NCBI GenBank assembly: GCA_028281385.1
Contig: JANQJY010000101.1
Coordinates: 1 to 34,531, forward strand
Direction: 5' to 3'
Source of the DNA: Rickettsiales bacterium
GTDB taxonomy: Bacteria > Pseudomonadota > Alphaproteobacteria > Rickettsiales > UBA3002
DNA length: 34,531 nucleotides
Shown here: one piece after another, positions 3,302 through 23,441 of the stretch
Numbering within the stretch: position 1 is the stretch's first letter
Layout: the number at the start of each line of letters is the position of its first letter
Program-made: the position numbers and the translations under genes
The notes under the pieces: model-generated
Database searches by the model: none
What the model was told of the DNA's origin: nothing
Seen by the model: only the letters and a program-made list of their open reading frames with translations

Positions 3302-4051
3302 CTACAAATCATTGCAGGGAAATGCCGTGGAGCAATGATTGCAGGTGTATTCGACCAGCCGTTCTAGATTATGGATACAGACCGTCGGCCCGGCAATGGT
3401 AATCCCCGTATGATCCTTTAATTTTGCCAACGCGCGCGAGAATGTCTCCGGCTTCATGCCCAGACGTGCGGCAATTAGAGTTTTATCATAGGGAAGCGTC
3501 AGGGTCACCGGACTGTCCACATTGCTACGGCACAGGCGCAGCAGAAAACATCCGATGCGCTGCGGTGCATTCTGAACATTCAGATGCTCAATCTCGCGAT
3601 GCTGCTGCAGGCGGTGGCGCGACATCGAAGACAGCATGTTCAGCGCCAGCCGGTTATCCGAAGCAATCACCTCTTTCAACAAGGCGGTGGGCAGGGCAAT
3701 TACCTCGGCATCTTCGATCACTTCCACCGCATAGCTGTAACAGTCATTTTCAAACACGGCATTTTCGCCAAACATATGGTCATCGGTCAGCACGTCGATA
3801 ATCGCTTCACTCCCCTCCAACGTTTCACGAAACAATTTAATCCAGCCGCGGATAATCACATAAAACCATTCCGCCGGATCGTCCTGCAGATACAGCATGT
3901 GTCCTTTTAAGATATGCCGATGCTGTGCCTGCTGTTCGAACCTCTCCACCACTTCGGCATCCAACCCGTCAAATAACGACGTCTGCCGAAGGACTTCCCC
4001 AATTTCTACCGAATAGTCCTGTTTTATCGCTGCCTGTCCCATCTCTCTCAT
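3302..4051 (-). CDS. Crp/Fnr-family transcriptional regulator with C-terminal cysteine cluster
   Basis: This 249-residue regulator has an N-terminal cyclic-nucleotide-binding-like beta roll (about 25-130), a long dimer helix (about 130-160) and a C-terminal winged helix. The recognition helix IAARLGMKPETFSRALAKLK carries E202, S205 and R206, the E..SR signature of regulators that bind TTGAT-N4-ATCAA. It lacks the N-terminal cysteine cluster of classical FNR, but the extreme C-terminus has C237, C240 and C246 (CNHCSTAFPC), plus C168 and C174. It is divergent from the cbb3 operon, with an FNR box in between. The start at 4051 is preceded by AAAAGG; a second ATG at 4042 preceded by GAGAG is an alternative. 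It is probably the local oxygen or redox regulator; the ligand is unknown. Confidence 0.88.
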   Translation of the reverse strand: MREMGQAAIKQDYSVEIGEVLRQTSLFDGLDAEVVERFEQQAQHRHILKGHMLYLQDDPAEWFYVIIRGWIKLFRETLEGSEAIIDVLTDDHMFGENAVFENDCYSYAVEVIEDAEVIALPTALLKEVIASDNRLALNMLSSMSRHRLQQHREIEHLNVQNAPQRIGCFLLRLCRSNVDSPVTLTLPYDKTLIAARLGMKPETFSRALAKLKDHTGITIAGPTVCIHNLERLVEYTCNHCSTAFPCNDL

Positions 4052-4068: not shown

Positions 4069-4109
4069 TTGACTAATGTCAAACCGTTGCCATCCCGTTT
4101 GATTATACT
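4069..4109 (+). promoter_or_regulatory. FNR box plus -10 for the cbb3 operon
   Basis: TTGACTAATGTCAA at 4069-4082 is a perfect inverted repeat matching TTGAY-N4-RTCAA. A -10-like TATACT lies at 4104-4109. With a start near 4117 the box centre falls at -41.5, the class II activator position. The box is also only 18 bases upstream of the leftward regulator gene's start codon at 4051, a position that would suit autoregulation. Confidence 0.72.
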
Positions 4110-8358: not shown

Positions 8359-8450
8359 GTCACCCCGCAGAAGGCTGAAAGCCTGATTGCGGGGTTAGAG
8401 TCATCCCTTAACCCCGCAATGCGCTTGCAAGCGAGCTTATGCGGGGTGAC
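8359..8450. repeat. tandem two-hairpin palindromic element between ccoP and ccoG
   Basis: Outer ends GTCACCCCGCA (8359-8369) and TGCGGGGTGAC (8440-8450) are exact inverted repeats. Each half also folds alone: the left as CCCCGCA...TGCGGGG with an inner AGGCT-GAA-AGCCT, the right as ACCCCGCA...TGCGGGGT with an inner GCTTGCAAGC palindrome. It sits inside the oxidase operon. It could slow or partly stop transcription, or stabilise the upstream ccoNOQP message relative to the assembly genes. Confidence 0.75.
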
Positions 8451-8477
8451 AATTGTCAAGGTAAAGCGAAATAAATC

Positions 8478-9920
8478 ATGACTGTTTCCCGACTTCCAGA
8501 TTCCGGATCTCCAGATTCCATTCAATATTTCGCCAAGGAACCGAAAGTCTATCCGAAACGCGTCTGGGGGCGGTATCGTAAAGTCAAATGGCTGGTGATG
8601 ATCGTCACGCTGGGCATTTATTACCTTGCACCCTTTCTGCGCTGGGACCGTGGCCCCAATGCGCCGGATCAGGCGATCCTGATCGATATGGTGAACCGCC
8701 GCGGCTATTTTTTCTTCATCGAAATCTGGCCGCAGGAAGTCTATTACCTCACCGGCATTTTGATTCTGGCCGCCGTCGCGTTGTTTTTCGCCACCTCTCT
8801 GGCGGGCCGCATATGGTGCGGCTATCTGTGTTTCCAGACGGTATGGACCGATCTGTTCGTCTGGGTGGAACGCATCGTTCAGGGAGACCGCAACGCCCGC
8901 AAGAAGCTCGATGAATCTCCCTGGACGTTCCGAAAACTTTATCAGAAAGGGCTCACACATCTGATCTGGCTGATCATCGGCCTGTGTACCGGCGGCGCCT
9001 GGGTATTTTACTTTAATGATGCCCCAACACTGCTTGAGCAGATTCTGCATCTCGATGTGCCGACGTCGGTGCTGGGGTGGATTATTACGCTGACCTTCAC
9101 CACCTATCTCATGGCCGGTTTTGCCCGTCAGCAGGTCTGCAAATATATGTGCCCTTATGCACGGTTTCAGTCAGCGATGTTTGATCGTGATACGCTGATC
9201 ATCGGCTATGATGAGAAACGGGGTGAAAAACGCGGAAAACTGAAAGACCGGGAAGACAATCCCGATCAGGGCGATTGCATCGACTGTTCCCTGTGCGTGC
9301 AGGTCTGCCCGATGGGCATCGATATCCGCGAGGGGCTGCAATATGAATGTATCGCCTGCGGGCTGTGCATTGATGCCTGTAACAATGTAATGGACAAGAT
9401 AGGGTTTGAGCGCGGCCTGATCCGTTATGATACAATGACCAACCAGGAAGCACGCGACGCCGGCAAGCCGGTGGCATCGGCATGGTCGCATGTCCTTCGT
9501 CCACGTACCTTTTATTACACTGCCATCCTCATTCTGGTTGGCAGTATCATGCTTTACAGCCTGCTGACACGCTCACCGCTGGAATTGCATGTACTACACG
9601 ACCGCAACCCGCTCTTTGTCAAACTGTCGGACGGCTCAATTCGCAACGGCTATGATATCCGCATTCTGAACAAGACCCATGAGGACCGTGTCTACCGCCT
9701 GCACATCTCAGGGCTGGAGAATGCCACCATGCAGATGCAGGGAGCCGGGGAGATCGACCCCAATCGTCTGCCCGTATTTGCCGACAGTGTCGGCCATTTT
9801 CGCCTGTTCGTAACGGCAGAAAAGCAAATCGAAAACCGATATGACGTGACATTTCATCTGGAAGAGCTAAACTCAAAAGAAACGGATCAGCTGAGAAGTG
9901 TTTTCATCAGCGGGAAATAA
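8478..9920 (+). CDS. ccoG: cytochrome c oxidase accessory protein CcoG (FixG), polyferredoxin
   Basis: This 480-residue membrane protein has about five hydrophobic helices (about 38-52, 88-108, 160-178, 196-215, 340-357) and a cytoplasmic ferredoxin region with two [4Fe-4S] sites: C267, C270, C273, C277 and C291, C294, C297, C301. Membrane-loop motifs WCGYLC (residues 113-118) and CKYMCPYARFQ (221-231) are typical of the family, and the C-terminal part is an Ig-like domain. CcoG reduces Cu(II) during assembly of the cbb3 CuB site. The ribosome site ahead of the ATG is weak. It follows the palindromic element and precedes the chemoreceptor-like gene by 12 bases. Confidence 0.96.
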   Translation: MTVSRLPDSGSPDSIQYFAKEPKVYPKRVWGRYRKVKWLVMIVTLGIYYLAPFLRWDRGPNAPDQAILIDMVNRRGYFFFIEIWPQEVYYLTGILILAAVALFFATSLAGRIWCGYLCFQTVWTDLFVWVERIVQGDRNARKKLDESPWTFRKLYQKGLTHLIWLIIGLCTGGAWVFYFNDAPTLLEQILHLDVPTSVLGWIITLTFTTYLMAGFARQQVCKYMCPYARFQSAMFDRDTLIIGYDEKRGEKRGKLKDREDNPDQGDCIDCSLCVQVCPMGIDIREGLQYECIACGLCIDACNNVMDKIGFERGLIRYDTMTNQEARDAGKPVASAWSHVLRPRTFYYTAILILVGSIMLYSLLTRSPLELHVLHDRNPLFVKLSDGSIRNGYDIRILNKTHEDRVYRLHISGLENATMQMQGAGEIDPNRLPVFADSVGHFRLFVTAEKQIENRYDVTFHLEELNSKETDQLRSVFISGK

Positions 9921-9932
9921 ACAGAGGAACAG

Positions 9933-10589
9933 GTGAGCCAGGCAATACAGCAACAACTTCAGCATGTGCTGCAGATCAACCATCTGATCTCACGTCTGCC
10001 TGTGATAGCAGAAGATATCAAACTCATTGCCTGTAATGCTGAAATTTCCGCATCACGCGCTGGAGAATCCGGTCGTTCGTTGCGTGTCATGACGTCTGAT
10101 ATCAACCAGCTCGCCAATATCATACATGAGCGGGTGAGTGATGTGATTCGGCATATCACCAACGCCACACGGCATATCGGCGTTTGTGCCACCAATCTGC
10201 GTAACTACAAAGCACTGAACGACGCCTCTGACCATTTGAGCTCTTTCGATACCAGCCTGTCCCGCCATAATCTTGAAAAGATACAACATTGCACCGATGT
10301 CGTCATGAAGGAAAACCTCCAGCTGTTTGACGCCACGGAAGACGCGCTTTATAAATTGTCGCAAGGGTTGCTGGATATCCGTGAGCAGATCCGTTTCGGC
10401 GAAATGCTCAGTGTGAACATTGGCATCGAAGTGCCCACCGCACTGAGCGGCAATGAAAAGCTGGAAGTGTTTCTTATTCTCTCCGACCACCTGCGCCAGG
10501 CGTGCGAGGAGATGACAGGCATCATCAGCCAATGTGATAAACTGGCAGTTACATTGCGGCAGCAGGCCGCCAAAAGGGAGGCAGCATGA
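9933..10589 (+). CDS. short cytoplasmic chemoreceptor-like signalling protein
   Basis: This 218-residue, largely helical soluble protein has no membrane segment, HAMP or sensor domain. Residues 29-64 (IKLIACNAEISASRAGESGR...TSDINQLA) match the signalling-hairpin tip of methyl-accepting chemotaxis proteins, which contacts CheA and CheW. The helix entering the tip is only about 25 residues long, much shorter than in ordinary receptors, so the hairpin lies at the N-terminus and the remaining 150 residues form other helices. The start is GTG with GAGGA upstream. The TGA overlaps the next gene's ATG by four bases, so it is translationally coupled to an ODP-type di-iron protein. It probably relays the oxygen or iron state of that partner; whether it joins a chemoreceptor array is unknown. 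Confidence 0.8.
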   Translation: MSQAIQQQLQHVLQINHLISRLPVIAEDIKLIACNAEISASRAGESGRSLRVMTSDINQLANIIHERVSDVIRHITNATRHIGVCATNLRNYKALNDASDHLSSFDTSLSRHNLEKIQHCTDVVMKENLQLFDATEDALYKLSQGLLDIREQIRFGEMLSVNIGIEVPTALSGNEKLEVFLILSDHLRQACEEMTGIISQCDKLAVTLRQQAAKREAA

Positions 10590-11353
10590 GAACAGAGATA
10601 CTATTTGAATCGGACGATCATCGCTGGATTGTATTCGGCCGTGATCCGGATAAACCCGATTATGTCATCGATACCAACGAGTATATCGTCACGTCCGGCG
10701 GTCATACGCTGGTACTGGATCCTGGCGGTACCGAAATCTTCCCCGAGGTCGTCACCGCCATCAGCCAACATGTGGCGGTGGAATCCATCACCGGTATCTT
10801 CGGTTCGCACCAGGATCCGGATATTCTCTCGTCTCTGTCACTATGGCTCGGTATCTGTCCCAATGTCAAAGTGTATGTACCCTGGACATGGACCGGGTTT
10901 GTGACCCATTTCGGGTGCGACGCCTCGCAGCTGGTTTCCGTGCCCGATGAAGGGAGCAGCATTCAGCTGAGTTCCTCCACCAAGCTGGATATCGTCCCGG
11001 CGCATTATCTGCATTCTTCCGGTAATATTCATCTGTATGATTCTAAAGCAAAAATTTATTTTTCCGGTGATGTCGGTGCAGCACTGCTGCCTGCGGAACA
11101 TAACCAACTGTTCGTCGAGAATTTTGATCAACATGTCAAATTCATGGAAGGCTTCCATCGCCGCTGGATGCCCTCCAACGTCGCTCGAGACCATTGGCTG
11201 GCGCGTGTGCGCAAACTCGATATCGACATGCTGTGCCCGCAACATGGCGCCGTGTTCACCGGCGAGAACGTCACCCGTTTCTTCGACTGGTTTGCCTCAC
11301 TGGAGTTGGGCTCGGCCACTCTTGATACCTCAGATGAACAGGAGGCCGCTTAG
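10586..11353 (+). CDS. ODP-family oxygen-binding di-iron protein (metallo-beta-lactamase fold)
   Basis: This 255-residue protein resembles the ODP family, whose characterised member in Treponema is a di-iron oxygen/iron sensor for chemotaxis. Family-type stretches are visible along its length: VFGRDPDKPDYVIDTNEYIV, LDPGGTEIFPEV, GSHQDPDILSSL, PAHYLHSSGN, YFSGDVGAALLP, NFDQHVKFMEGFHRRWM and LCPQHGAVF. Candidate metal ligands are H75, D77, D79, H140, D162 and H220. The start overlaps the chemoreceptor-like gene (ATGA) and its TAG abuts the ccoH ATG, with the ccoH ribosome site AGGAGG inside its last codons. It is therefore an integral part of the oxidase operon. A hydrolase role is less likely given the ODP-specific motifs and the partner gene. 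Confidence 0.85.
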   Translation: MRTEILFESDDHRWIVFGRDPDKPDYVIDTNEYIVTSGGHTLVLDPGGTEIFPEVVTAISQHVAVESITGIFGSHQDPDILSSLSLWLGICPNVKVYVPWTWTGFVTHFGCDASQLVSVPDEGSSIQLSSSTKLDIVPAHYLHSSGNIHLYDSKAKIYFSGDVGAALLPAEHNQLFVENFDQHVKFMEGFHRRWMPSNVARDHWLARVRKLDIDMLCPQHGAVFTGENVTRFFDWFASLELGSATLDTSDEQEAA

Positions 11354-11581
11354 ATGACTTCGACTCCGCTGAAAGATCGTCTGATCCCTTGGTATTTCGT
11401 CATGGCATTCCTGGTGGTGTTCGCCGTCAACGGCGTCTTTATTTATCTCGCGACCAGCACGCATCCGGATGTCGTCACCGAAAATGCCTATGAAAAGGGG
11501 CTGGCGTATGACCGCATCGTTGAGGAAGTGAGACAACACAAAGCCGACACACTGTTACAGCATGGAACAGGCGATCAATAG
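11354..11581 (+). CDS. ccoH: CcoH/FixH, short form
   Basis: This 75-residue protein has the FixH N-terminal hallmark: IPWYFVMAFLVVFAVNGVFIYLATST (one membrane helix, about 11-36) followed by TENAYEKGLAYDR. Typical FixH proteins are about 150-170 residues and continue into a periplasmic domain. Here the frame ends after about 25 more charged residues, so that domain is missing. CcoH helps assemble or stabilise the oxidase through its membrane helix. AGGAGG lies upstream, and the gene overlaps ccoI by 20 bases. No continuation of the lost domain was seen in other frames, since ccoI begins at once. It may be a naturally short variant or a truncation that remains functional. Confidence 0.85.
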   Translation: MTSTPLKDRLIPWYFVMAFLVVFAVNGVFIYLATSTHPDVVTENAYEKGLAYDRIVEEVRQHKADTLLQHGTGDQ

Positions 11582-13703
11582 TCAGCATTTTCATATTGAA
11601 GGAATACGTTGCGCACGCTGCATTCATGCGATTGAATCGGCCCTACAGCATGAACCGGCCGTCACCCAGGCACGCGTGAATATGAGCACCAACCGGCTTA
11701 CCCTTGCCGGGCAGGGGGAGTATTCACTGATCCATCATTTCACCCAACTCATTGAATCGCTGGGTTATAAGGTCAGCGCATCGGACGCACCAGCCACCGA
11801 CCATGATGATGCAAAACACCTGCTGCGCTGCATGGCTGTCGCCGGTTTCGCCATGGGCAACATCATGCTGATCTCCTTTGCGCTGTGGAGCAGTGAGCAA
11901 CAGGTCATGGGACTGGCCACGCGCGATCTGCTGCACTGGATTTCCGCGCTCATCGCCCTGCCGACGATCGCCTATGCCGGCCGGCCGTTTTTCGCCTCAG
12001 CATGGGGCGTGCTACGACATGGCCGCACCAACATGGATGTACCGATCTCACTGGCACTCATTCTGGCAAGCGGCATGAGCCTATTTGAAACCTTCCATCA
12101 TGGGGAACACGCCTATTTCGATTCCGCTGTCATGCTGCTATTCTTTCTGCTTATCGGACGCTGGCTCGATGCACGTGCACGCGGCAAGGCACGCGAGAAT
12201 GCCGGAAACCTGCTGGCCATGATGCAAGGTTCGGCAACGGTGGTCGAAGAAGACGGAACACAACGCACCGTTCCTATCAAGGAGCTGCGGGAAAATAGGG
12301 TGATTCGCATCGCAACGGGGGAAAAAATCCCAACCGATGCCACCATTATCGAAGGCCGTTCCGAAATCGATACCAGCCTGGTCACCGGCGAAACATTGCC
12401 GCACGCTGTCACGGAAGGCGATACCGTCTATGGCGGCACGTTGAATCTGTCCGCACCGCTGACAGCCCGTGTATTAAAGGCCAGCGACGACAGCCTGCTC
12501 GCCGATATCATCCGCCTGATGGAACAGGCGGAACAAGGCCGTGCGCATTATGTGCGGCTGGCGGACAAGGCTGCAGCCCTCTATACACCCGTGGTGCATA
12601 CGCTCGCCGCTTGTGCCTTTTTCGGATGGTACCTGGTTGGCGGTATCGCCTGGCAGGAAGCGCTGCTGATTGCGATCACCACACTGATCATCACCTGCCC
12701 CTGCGCACTGGGGCTGGCAGTGCCGGTGGTCCAAGTGCTGGCGACCAGCTGGCTGATGTCACGCGGCATGCTGGTCAAATCCGGCGATGCACTAGAACGG
12801 CTGGCACGCATCGATACGGTCCTGTTCGACAAAACCGGTACACTGACAAAGGGCGCACCGGCACTGGTGGGCGATTATCCCGAAGACAGGCTGCAACTTG
12901 CCGCCTCACTCGCCGCGCACAGCAAACATCCCTATAGCCAGGCCATCAGCCGCGCCTATGACGGTGCGTTGCTGACGCTGGACGGCATACGCGAAATCCC
13001 CGGCACGGGTGTGGAAGGTGTCTATGACGGACAGCCCGTCTTTCTTGGAAAACAGAAAGAAGAGGTGACGGAGGATGCTACCCCACCATCATCGGACGGT
13101 AGCAGCCACATCTGGCTGTATCAGACTGGAAAGGAAGCATGCGTCTTTCAGTTGTGTGACCCGTTGCGCGACGATAGTAAAGACATCGTATCGGCCCTGA
13201 AACAGGCGCAGATGGACATACATCTGTTATCAGGAGACCGCCGGACAACCGTGGAAAATGTGGCAAACACGCTGGATATCAACCATTGGCAAAGCGGAAT
13301 GCTGCCTCAGGATAAGACAGCGGCCATCAAGCAGCTGCAGGAGCAGAAACGCCATGTGCTGATGGTGGGTGATGGCCTCAATGATGCGCCGTCGCTGGCA
13401 CAGGCCGATGTGTCGATGTCACCGGCAAGCGGGATGGATATGACGCAAAACAGCGCCGATATTGTGTTTCAGGGTGACCGGCTGGCGCCGGTACTGCACT
13501 CATGGCGCATGGCCAGATTCTCAACCACGCTGGTAAAGCAAAATTTTATGCTGGCGGTGTTGTATAATTGCCTCGCCATTCCGCTGGCCGTGGCTGGCTA
13601 TGTCACGCCGCTCATTGCGGCGATTGCCATGTCCTCTTCATCCCTGATTGTGATCGCCAACTCATTCCGTATCCATATGATACAGGAGGAGGGGACAAGC
13701 TGA
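11562..13703 (+). CDS. ccoI: copper-translocating P1B-type ATPase CcoI (FixI)
   Basis: This 713-residue ATPase exports Cu+ across the inner membrane for insertion into the cbb3 oxidase. An N-terminal heavy-metal-associated domain carries GIRCARC (C17, C20). Two early membrane-helix pairs follow, then the actuator loop with SLVTGETLP (about 272-280), the metal-binding membrane motif C379-P380-C381 (ITCPCALGLAVP), the phosphorylation site D423 in DKTGTLT, the HP motif (SKHPYSQAI) and the hinge GDGLNDAPSL near residue 607. Length and motif order are complete for CopA2/FixI. It starts inside ccoH, and its stop overlaps the ccoS start by one base (TGATG). Confidence 0.96.
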   Translation: MEQAINSQHFHIEGIRCARCIHAIESALQHEPAVTQARVNMSTNRLTLAGQGEYSLIHHFTQLIESLGYKVSASDAPATDHDDAKHLLRCMAVAGFAMGNIMLISFALWSSEQQVMGLATRDLLHWISALIALPTIAYAGRPFFASAWGVLRHGRTNMDVPISLALILASGMSLFETFHHGEHAYFDSAVMLLFFLLIGRWLDARARGKARENAGNLLAMMQGSATVVEEDGTQRTVPIKELRENRVIRIATGEKIPTDATIIEGRSEIDTSLVTGETLPHAVTEGDTVYGGTLNLSAPLTARVLKASDDSLLADIIRLMEQAEQGRAHYVRLADKAAALYTPVVHTLAACAFFGWYLVGGIAWQEALLIAITTLIITCPCALGLAVPVVQVLATSWLMSRGMLVKSGDALERLARIDTVLFDKTGTLTKGAPALVGDYPEDRLQLAASLAAHSKHPYSQAISRAYDGALLTLDGIREIPGTGVEGVYDGQPVFLGKQKEEVTEDATPPSSDGSSHIWLYQTGKEACVFQLCDPLRDDSKDIVSALKQAQMDIHLLSGDRRTTVENVANTLDINHWQSGMLPQDKTAAIKQLQEQKRHVLMVGDGLNDAPSLAQADVSMSPASGMDMTQNSADIVFQGDRLAPVLHSWRMARFSTTLVKQNFMLAVLYNCLAIPLAVAGYVTPLIAAIAMSSSSLIVIANSFRIHMIQEEGTS

Positions 13704-13862: not shown

Positions 13863-13903
13863 TTGATCAAAATCAATTTTCTGCTACTTTGCCTGACTAT
13901 AGT
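13863..13903 (+). promoter_or_regulatory. perfect FNR box and -10 for ompW
   Basis: TTGATCAAAATCAA at 13863-13876 is a full match to TTGAT-N4-ATCAA. A -10-like TATAGT lies at 13898-13903, the same 35-base offset from box start to -10 as at the cbb3 promoter. Transcription would start near 13911, putting the box at -41.5 and predicting activation under oxygen limitation. It is 17 bases after the ccoS stop. Confidence 0.8.
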
Positions 13904-21302: not shown

Positions 21303-23441
21303 CTACATAGAGCTGTTGCGGATACCAGTCAGGAACCGCTGCACTTCGCCATCCAGCCCCTCCGCATGCGTTGACAGTTCTTTCGCCGCGGCCAGCACCT
21401 GTTCAGAGGAATGCTTGGCTTCTGCCGCCTGAGACGACACGCCTTCCAGGCTATTGCTGATTACCGTCGTACCGTCACTGGCAGTGTGCATGTTCTGTGC
21501 AATTTCCGCCGTGGTTGCCGACTGTTCTTCCACCGCCGATGCGATAATGCCCGATGACTCCGACACACGGTGTATCGAGCTTTTAATATCCGAAAGAGAC
21601 GCAATGATATTGTTACTCGCATTCTGCATTTCCTCGATCACCTTCTGCACTTCATGCACCGAATTATCGGTTTCATTGGCGAGCATCTTCACTTCATTGG
21701 CCACAACGACAAACCCTTTACCAGCTTCCCCTGCACGTGCGGACTCAATCGTCGCATTCAACGATAACAGGTTGATCTGCCCGGCGATATTGGAAATGAT
21801 ATCGATGACTTCTTTCACCTTGGCCGTCGCGTCGCCCAATGCTTTTGCGTGCGCGTCCGCTTCATCCGAGATGCGGACAGACTCTTTCACTACATCATTC
21901 GCCCGCTGAATTTGTTGAGAAATTTCACGAACCGAGCCGGTCATTTCCTCAATCGCCGCCGCTACCGCCTGAACATTACTGGTGGTCTGAGACGATGCAG
22001 ACGTGGCGCTCTGTGCGCTTGTGCTGCAGCTATCCACCAGATGCGTCATATTCTCCGCCGTCATCGACAACTGAGTCGCGGCCGACGCAAGTGTGGCGAC
22101 AATACCCTGCACCTGCTGTTCGAATGAATTAGCCAACTCATCCAGCATTTGGCGGCGCTCCTGCTTGGCCCGTTCCTGACTGGCAATCTGATCCGTCTGC
22201 AACTGACGTTTTTCAATCGCATTCTTTCTGAATTTTTCGGCGGCTATGCCCAACTCACCCACCTCATCATGACGGTCGGCAAAATCAATATCGACATCCA
22301 ACTGATCATTGGCCAGTTCGTTCAGCACATGGCTGGCATTGGTCAACGGCACTGTAATCGTGCGTGAGAAGAGATAACCGACAAAGCCAAGCACCGACAC
22401 AATCGCAATCGTCGCAGTAACCATATGGCGTTCTAAAGCCGTCACAGCCTGCAATGCTTCGTCTTTATTTTCAATGGCCAGGACAACAAACCCTACTCCC
22501 AGAAATTCAAACGGCTCGGCTGCCGCCAGATAGGTACTGCCATTCATGTCCACTACGTCAACGACAGCTCCCAACTGGAAGGCTTTTTCAACAATCGGCA
22601 GTTCTATCTTACGGGTTAATATGTCATTCTCTGCGGTTAAAGGACTGTCATTTCGTACCAGAAAATCCTGCCCTATCAGCAACATCTCCCCGGTTTCACC
22701 CAATGCCTTGCCTACTTCCATCGCGCGGTTAATACCATCAACCGGCATCTGGAATACCAATACACCTACCTTTGCATCATTCTCAAATATGGGGGTTGAC
22801 ATAAAACCGGCCGGGGCACCATGGCTTGGCACATATGGCTTGAAATCGAAGAAAAACACATCATCCTGCTTAGCGGATGATGCGGCTGCAGCACGAAACG
22901 CATGACCTAAGTCCGTATCTCTGTATTTGCCATTATTCAGATTCGTTGCGTAATCTGCCCCTTTGGAGACAGTGTAGACAAGGTCACCATTCATATTAAA
23001 CAGGAAAATATCATTGTAACCGCGTTGTTTGAGAAGAGTATAAAAGGATTCATGATGCTTCGCATGCACCCGGCTGTAATAGCTGTCATCCCCCGCATCA
23101 TGCAGTTTATCTTTCTCACCGTCTGGATAAGAGTTACCATGGACATAAAGTCCCTGCAGCACCTGCTCCTGACTGTCCCCTATCACATTCCAGGCGAAGG
23201 AAAATTCTCTCACGGCTTGTAGCGTTTCCCTGTTATGGGCGGCGGTAATCACATCCTGTTGAATCGTTCCAAGATAATCGACCAGCGCACTTTCTCTGTC
23301 ATACATGATATTGGCGACACCCTTTTCAATCGTTTCAGTCAATGCCTGAGACGCCATAGTGATCGCGATTGCCGCCAGGATAATACTATTCAGAATGGCG
23401 CCGCCGATGATGATAAGAGGCATCTTTTGTGCGATTTTCAT
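21303..23441 (-). CDS. methyl-accepting chemotaxis protein with periplasmic Cache-type sensor
   Basis: This 712-residue chemoreceptor has a first membrane helix at about 8-30, a large periplasmic double-Cache-like region at about 35-335 ([60 protein letters not shown]), a second membrane helix at about 341-358, HAMP at about 359-412, and a cytoplasmic signalling domain at about 440-700. The tip is [33 protein letters not shown]. No C-terminal CheR-docking pentapeptide is visible. The paired [11 protein letters not shown] motif is common in receptors of this class. It is transcribed alone. The ligand is unknown. It is the only full receptor here and a possible partner for chemotaxis signals from the oxidase operon. 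Confidence 0.93.

Follow-up and report, generated by a model that had tools for sequence, protein, structure and literature searches.

Bacterial chemoreceptors are thought to require a dimer of long hairpins that carries adaptation sites. A short cytoplasmic receptor of T. maritima without a sensor part (3g67/3g6b, 213 aa) is what we take to be Tm14, and it presumably forms a dimer of long hairpins. Operons that join an oxygen-binding di-iron protein (ODP) to a chemoreceptor (MCP) are known in two gene orders, according to the account of Muok et al. 2019 (PNAS 116:14955) given in PMC7319448. As far as PMC7666581 and PMC6978683 describe the T. denticola system, the ODP (TDE2498) and the sensorless MCP TDE2496 act on CheA; deletion of the ODP alters the order of CheA in the array (PMC7666581), and PMC6978683 describes an interaction of the ODP with its cognate receptors. 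Secondary accounts of Muok et al. 2019 yielded no earlier description of the receptor architecture in the MCP-first group, and a literature search by phrase for sensorless or single-chain receptors gave no match. The pairing of an ODP with a sensorless receptor is already published; the pair described here stands out by an unusual receptor architecture and, in one lineage, by its insertion into a cbb3 operon.

A conserved gene pair between ccoG and ccoH

In the window, the whole stretch of 34,531 nucleotides from a Rickettsiales bacterium that was analysed, two genes separate ccoG from ccoH, and a CcoI-type P-ATPase gene follows (Table 1). As at TDE2498/TDE2496, an ODP is encoded beside a receptor without sensor or membrane parts, here called MCPL, in a genome that contains CheA and CheW. 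The initial annotation had placed both genes at this position and read them as one translation unit, which the junctions bear out: the MCPL stop and ODP start overlap, and the ODP stop directly abuts the ccoH start (TAG-ATG, with ccoH from 11354).

Table 1. Coordinates of the MCPL-ODP pair, its neighbours and the turns of MCPL, numbered along the window
Feature	Position	Strand	Basis
FNR-box-like site, 1 mismatch, just 5' of ccoG	8446-8459	+	
ccoG, 5' neighbour of the MCPL-ODP pair	8478-9920	+	
MCPL (sensorless chemoreceptor-tip protein, 218 aa, GTG start)	9933-10589	+	ORF, PF00015 match, AlphaFold model
MCPL first hairpin tip, residues ~34-45, CNAEISASRAGE, predicted turn at residue 43	10032-10067	+	N35 and A36 invariant (alignment A1); turn from model
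MCPL second, tip-like turn (predicted), residues ~161-176, VNIGIEVPTALSGNEK	10413-10460	+	I165 and E166 nearly invariant; hhalign, model
ODP (oxygen-binding di-iron protein family, metallo-beta-lactamase fold, 255 aa)	10586-11353	+	PF19583, solved ODPs, ligand alignment
ATGA shared by the MCPL stop and the ODP start	10586-10589	+	sequence
ccoH (FixH/CcoH), 75 aa, truncated	11354-11581	+	PF05751, 1.7e-13
ccoI-type copper P-ATPase gene	11562-13703	+	

The pair is a conserved module that recurs in many motile bacteria, Dechloromonas denitrificans and Azonexus hydrophilus among them. Scanning a genome collection with the window's ODP gave 80 loci, and an MCPL of ~200 aa lies immediately 5' of the ODP on the same strand in 77 of them; a 4-base overlap is the commonest junction (27 of the 77 homologous pairs). 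The exceptions to adjacency are L121, where the frames are broken, and L112 and L115, where the partner was not found. The latter two are sister loci with an intact ODP, a hemerythrin gene following and no recognisable MCPL 5', and the receptor has possibly been lost there. All seven other ODP genomes of a class-wide sample carry MCPL too, although the one at L136 came to light only in a frame-by-frame search and the ORF search matched the one at L140 only in part. In total the pair is conserved at ~94 other loci, far above chance. Its occurrence within the class is patchy, at 8 of 385 genomes.

The ODP retains all six metal ligands

The assignment of the second gene product as an ODP-type di-iron protein is secure. 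It matches PF19583 over profile positions 1-194 of 194 (E=2.8e-75; 252.9 bits against a cut-off of 27.2) and is homologous over its full length to both solved ODPs, 6qrq and 6qnm. Loss of the di-iron ligands would have spoken against the assignment made earlier, and the alignment gives the opposite result, with H75, D77, D79, H140, D162 and H220 invariant among 68 aligned ODPs and identical in the 6qrq and 6qnm sequences. The window's ODP shares full length and ligand positions with these two proteins, but its sequence has clearly diverged from theirs, with ~40% identity as judged by the Treponema-type homologues of Spirochaetota. By analogy with the solved homologues, we infer that it binds iron and O2 at the di-iron site. 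As far as could be checked, no structure or assay was found for the clade to which the window's ODP belongs.

MCPL carries a receptor tip and probably a second copy of it

MCPL had been read as a soluble protein with a chemoreceptor hairpin tip, and this description holds. The protein lacks a membrane segment (maximum 19-residue hydropathy 1.06), matches PF00015 with E=4.4e-8 at 33.6 bits, just below the 34.6 cut-off, and matches solved MCPs at ~1e-6; its homologue at locus L050 reaches 46.2 bits against PF00015. An hhalign comparison of the N half with the MCP tip gives a probability of 98.8% (E 9e-17). Membership of an unrelated helical family, which would have undone the receptor reading, was considered and rejected: the best matches are all MCP tips, and those to Ku_PK_bind, keratin and TGA are weak. 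MCPL shares with the PF00015 signalling domain the tip motif and the register of the first hairpin, but it has no adaptation or methylation helices, and its arms measure only ~40 and ~60 residues.

The C half of MCPL, aligned alone, falls on the same MCP columns as the N half (E 7.5e-5, score 33.8), where the best of 60 column shuffles scored 19.1 and the reversed control 18.8. A second alignment that omits the window's clade gave 28.2 for the C half, against 23.6 for the best of 60 heptad-block shuffles. HH probabilities for this second-hairpin match are modest (28-62%). Direct alignment of the two halves is marginal (23-24 against 15-22 in shuffles), and alignment A2 puts them out of register, so the case for duplication leans on the match of the C half to the MCP tip. 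Since the HH probabilities are modest and the half-to-half alignment is indecisive, we regard it as likely, short of proven, that the second hairpin is homologous to the receptor tip and that the tip of MCPL is duplicated.

The near-invariant residues of MCPL are divided between the hairpins, with N35 and A36 in the first and I165 and E166 in the second, and E166 aligns to the MCP tip glutamate. In Tsr numbering, the first hairpin presumably holds the N381- and R388-like residues and the second the E385-like one. The window's MCPL has a weaker tip motif than its homologues and lacks some tip residues: a serine stands at the E385 equivalent, and serine and leucine replace the G and F of GRGF.

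Two divergent MCPLs are predicted to form single-chain four-helix bundles

AlphaFold2 predicts the window's MCPL with a pLDDT of 94.6 and a pTM of 0.86 (helices 2-42, 44-103, 108-170 and 177-217), and the homologue from the che-operon locus L061 with a pLDDT of 87.8 and a pTM of 0.76 (helices 5-48, 51-102, 109-166 and 169-201). These two divergent proteins thus share a predicted four-helix pattern, which suggests that MCPL is a single-chain antiparallel four-helix bundle; both are monomer predictions, with which a domain-swapped dimer would also be compatible. Supporting the single-chain reading, the window model matches up-down four-helix bundles over its full length. The matches returned by Foldseek and VIA-align were mainly designed single-chain four-helix bundles (Z ~19), solved receptor tips being absent from the leading matches, and because helical bundles are common these matches say nothing about the ancestry of MCPL.

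The bundle topology would place both turns, at residue 43 and at residues 171-176, at one end. The predicted helices are 41, 60, 63 and 41 residues long, and as the central pair exceeds the outer pair by ~20 residues, the bundle would be extended at the end opposite the tip turns. It is at this extended, tip-distal end that we would expect the ODP to dock. With its tip at residue 43 of 218, the modelled MCPL does not form a long symmetric antiparallel hairpin with an adaptation region. The short N-terminal arm had been taken to mean that the protein cannot be a standard receptor bundle; it is indeed evidence against a standard receptor hairpin, but on the models the missing partner would be a second hairpin in the same chain.

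MCPL differs from the partners of Treponema-type ODPs

The 20 Spirochaetota loci fall into two groups. Where the ODP is 50-56% identical to that of the window, an MCPL lies directly 5' in 10 of 11 cases, the eleventh being at a contig edge; where the identity is ~40-43%, a single-central-hairpin receptor of 279-348 aa is located 3' in all nine. In the ODP tree these groups form two clades separated with 100/100 support, each keeping its own partner type and gene order, and the window's ODP belongs to a different, well-supported clade from the Treponema-type ODP. The Treponema-type partner has ~280-350 aa and one central hairpin (tip at ~residue 150 of 287) and is encoded 3' of odp, whereas MCPL has ~200 aa and apparently two hairpins and is encoded 5'. 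Of the features of the Treponema-type module, the window thus has the adjacent sensorless MCP and lacks the downstream single-hairpin partner of ~280-350 aa.

These comparisons bear on whether the pair is simply the known Treponema/Thermotoga-type ODP with a sensorless MCP, MCPL being a shortened ordinary hairpin that dimerises as usual. The N half is clearly an MCP tip, homologous to that of 3g67/3g6b (MCPL residues 3-74 align at 67-138 of 213 in 3g67), and ODP-MCP pairs in two gene orders are on record (Muok et al. 2019, as given in PMC7319448). We nevertheless consider this explanation unlikely, as the tips of the Treponema-type receptors and of 3g67 are central in the chain and that of MCPL is eccentric and followed by central helices of ~60 and 63 residues, as both models show a compact single-chain bundle, and as the two ODP clades are sharply split by partner.

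Genomic contexts favour an input to chemotaxis

In 22 of the 80 loci the pair adjoins or sits within a chemotaxis operon (Gallionellaceae, Sulfuricella, Methylobacter, Thiobacillus and others), typically in the order CheY-STAS-CheA-MCP(PAS)-CheW-[MCPL-ODP]-CheR-CheD-CheB, where CheY and CheB were assigned from a shared receiver-domain cluster and from position. CheW was present in 49 of 49 searched ODP genomes, and in the class sample in all eight ODP genomes against 47% overall (Fisher p=0.002, kinship ignored). The genome from which the window comes encodes five flagellins, two CheA/CheW clusters (one of them beside flagellin genes) and six further receptors, one of which lies within the window. 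Both genomic signs of a chemotaxis array component are found, CheA/CheW in the same genome and relatives' pairs in che operons. At locus L132 (G000:C62) a chemotaxis cluster lies beside five flagellin genes, and a fusion of a response regulator and a SpoIIE phosphatase is encoded directly 5' of its cheA.

Many pairs lie outside che operons, which counts against a chemotaxis input. In many Rhodocyclaceae and relatives, PhaC is followed by the pair and then by hemerythrin, DUF2249 and a 432-aa protein, with CRP/FNR or NorR-type regulators nearby; PhaC is nearby at 37 loci, and ccoN or ccoG lies at most 10 kb away in 10 Rhodocyclaceae-type loci. The ~432-aa protein that follows MCPL-ODP-hemerythrin-DUF2249 is conserved and has no Pfam match (L111:11495-12790 and ~32 homologous loci). 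Such contexts, and the position inside a cbb3 operon in the window, could mean that MCPL-ODP acts through a partner outside the array to regulate a local response to microaerobic or denitrifying conditions, such as oxidase assembly, PHB or NO/O2 detoxification, chemotaxis being incidental in such lineages. We judge this quite improbable. The known ligands of a receptor tip are CheA, CheW and other receptors, and the partner of the ODP is such a tip; che operons enclose the pair in several lineages, CheW is present in all 57 ODP genomes, and 14 of 49 genomes lack a full-score ccoN, those of Methylobacter included.

The earlier proposal that the pair reports oxygen to chemotaxis accordingly stands as the most likely one, from the che-operon contexts and the presence of CheW in every ODP genome tested. 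Occurrence at random in genomes without cbb3 or che genes had been named as a result that would count against a functional pair. In the tested genomes it never occurs without che genes, but it does occur without cbb3, since ccoN exceeded the cut-off in 35 of 49.

Together, these observations make it probable that the pair acts as a self-contained module feeding O2/iron signals into chemotaxis, in which MCPL serves as a single-chain pseudo-dimer of a receptor tip in the CheA/CheW array. The ODP would take up iron and O2 at its di-iron site and may dock on MCPL, a cytoplasmic stub receptor that would consist of the tip only, having no sensor, membrane or methylation regions. The MCPL chain is predicted to fold two antiparallel hairpins into one four-helix bundle, so that one polypeptide would mimic a normal receptor dimer at its tip. 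It could, by analogy with T. denticola, enter CheA/CheW arrays in place of a receptor dimer, and the redox or ligand state of the ODP would then shift kinase output.

It is about an even call whether MCPL represents the first single-chain pseudo-dimeric chemoreceptor to be recognised, with a duplicated tip in tandem, one polypeptide replacing the receptor dimer, conserved tip residues split between the hairpins, and a role, across Pseudomonadota and Spirochaetota, as the non-adapting socket into which a soluble O2/iron sensor plugs. If so, a minimal unit able to talk to CheA/CheW would be defined by a single chain of ~200 aa that mimics the dimer tip alone and nearly always comes with an oxygen/iron sensor as its partner. 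The acceptance of non-adapting inputs by arrays would then become testable, as would the wiring of oxygen sensing to microaerobic respiration.

The insertion into the cbb3 operon is peculiar to this lineage

Coupling of the pair to ccoGHI, as the initial annotation had supposed, finds no support as a rule outside the lineage of the window. The seven family and order relatives whose ccoG locus was read on its 3' side all have a full-length ccoH (~145-170 aa) that overlaps ccoG or follows it directly, and in none of the 80 homologous loci does the pair lie between these genes. The insertion is peculiar to this lineage, and a conserved place in the cco operon, as expected of a CcoGHIS assembly factor, was not found. 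Co-expression with the oxidase would accordingly be a property of the lineage and not of the module. A general link to cbb3 was considered as a rule and discarded on the relatives' intact ccoG-ccoH junctions and the ODP genomes that lack a full-score ccoN. Within this lineage, where the module is inserted between ccoG and ccoH, the pair is probably produced along with the microaerobic cbb3 oxidase.

The window's ccoH keeps the first ~65 aligned residues and the membrane segment but lacks the ~85-aa C-terminal part found in all relatives examined, and ccoI overlaps its end. This truncation, the weakened tip motif of MCPL and the fact that none of the 89 other relatives examined from the family and order has the pair might suggest a recently inserted, possibly decaying passenger, one that broke up the ccoG-ccoH junction and, though expressed, has only a marginal function. 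We think this very improbable, given that neither reading frame is broken, that the overlaps and ribosome sites are in place, and that the ODP keeps all its ligands and is 60-67% identical to its nearest relatives. The GC content of the pair (0.51-0.53) is the same as that of its surroundings (window 0.528), so that composition shows no sign of recent transfer.

Across the whole window FNR boxes show no excess over chance. Three sites match the FNR-box consensus exactly (4069-4082, 2524-2537 and 13863-13876), and one exact box lies between a divergent Crp/FNR-type regulator gene (3302-4051, minus strand) and a DsbD_2 gene 5' of ccoN. The window also encodes a HAMP-containing chemoreceptor of 712 aa (21303-23441, minus strand) ~10 kb 3' of the MCPL-ODP pair.
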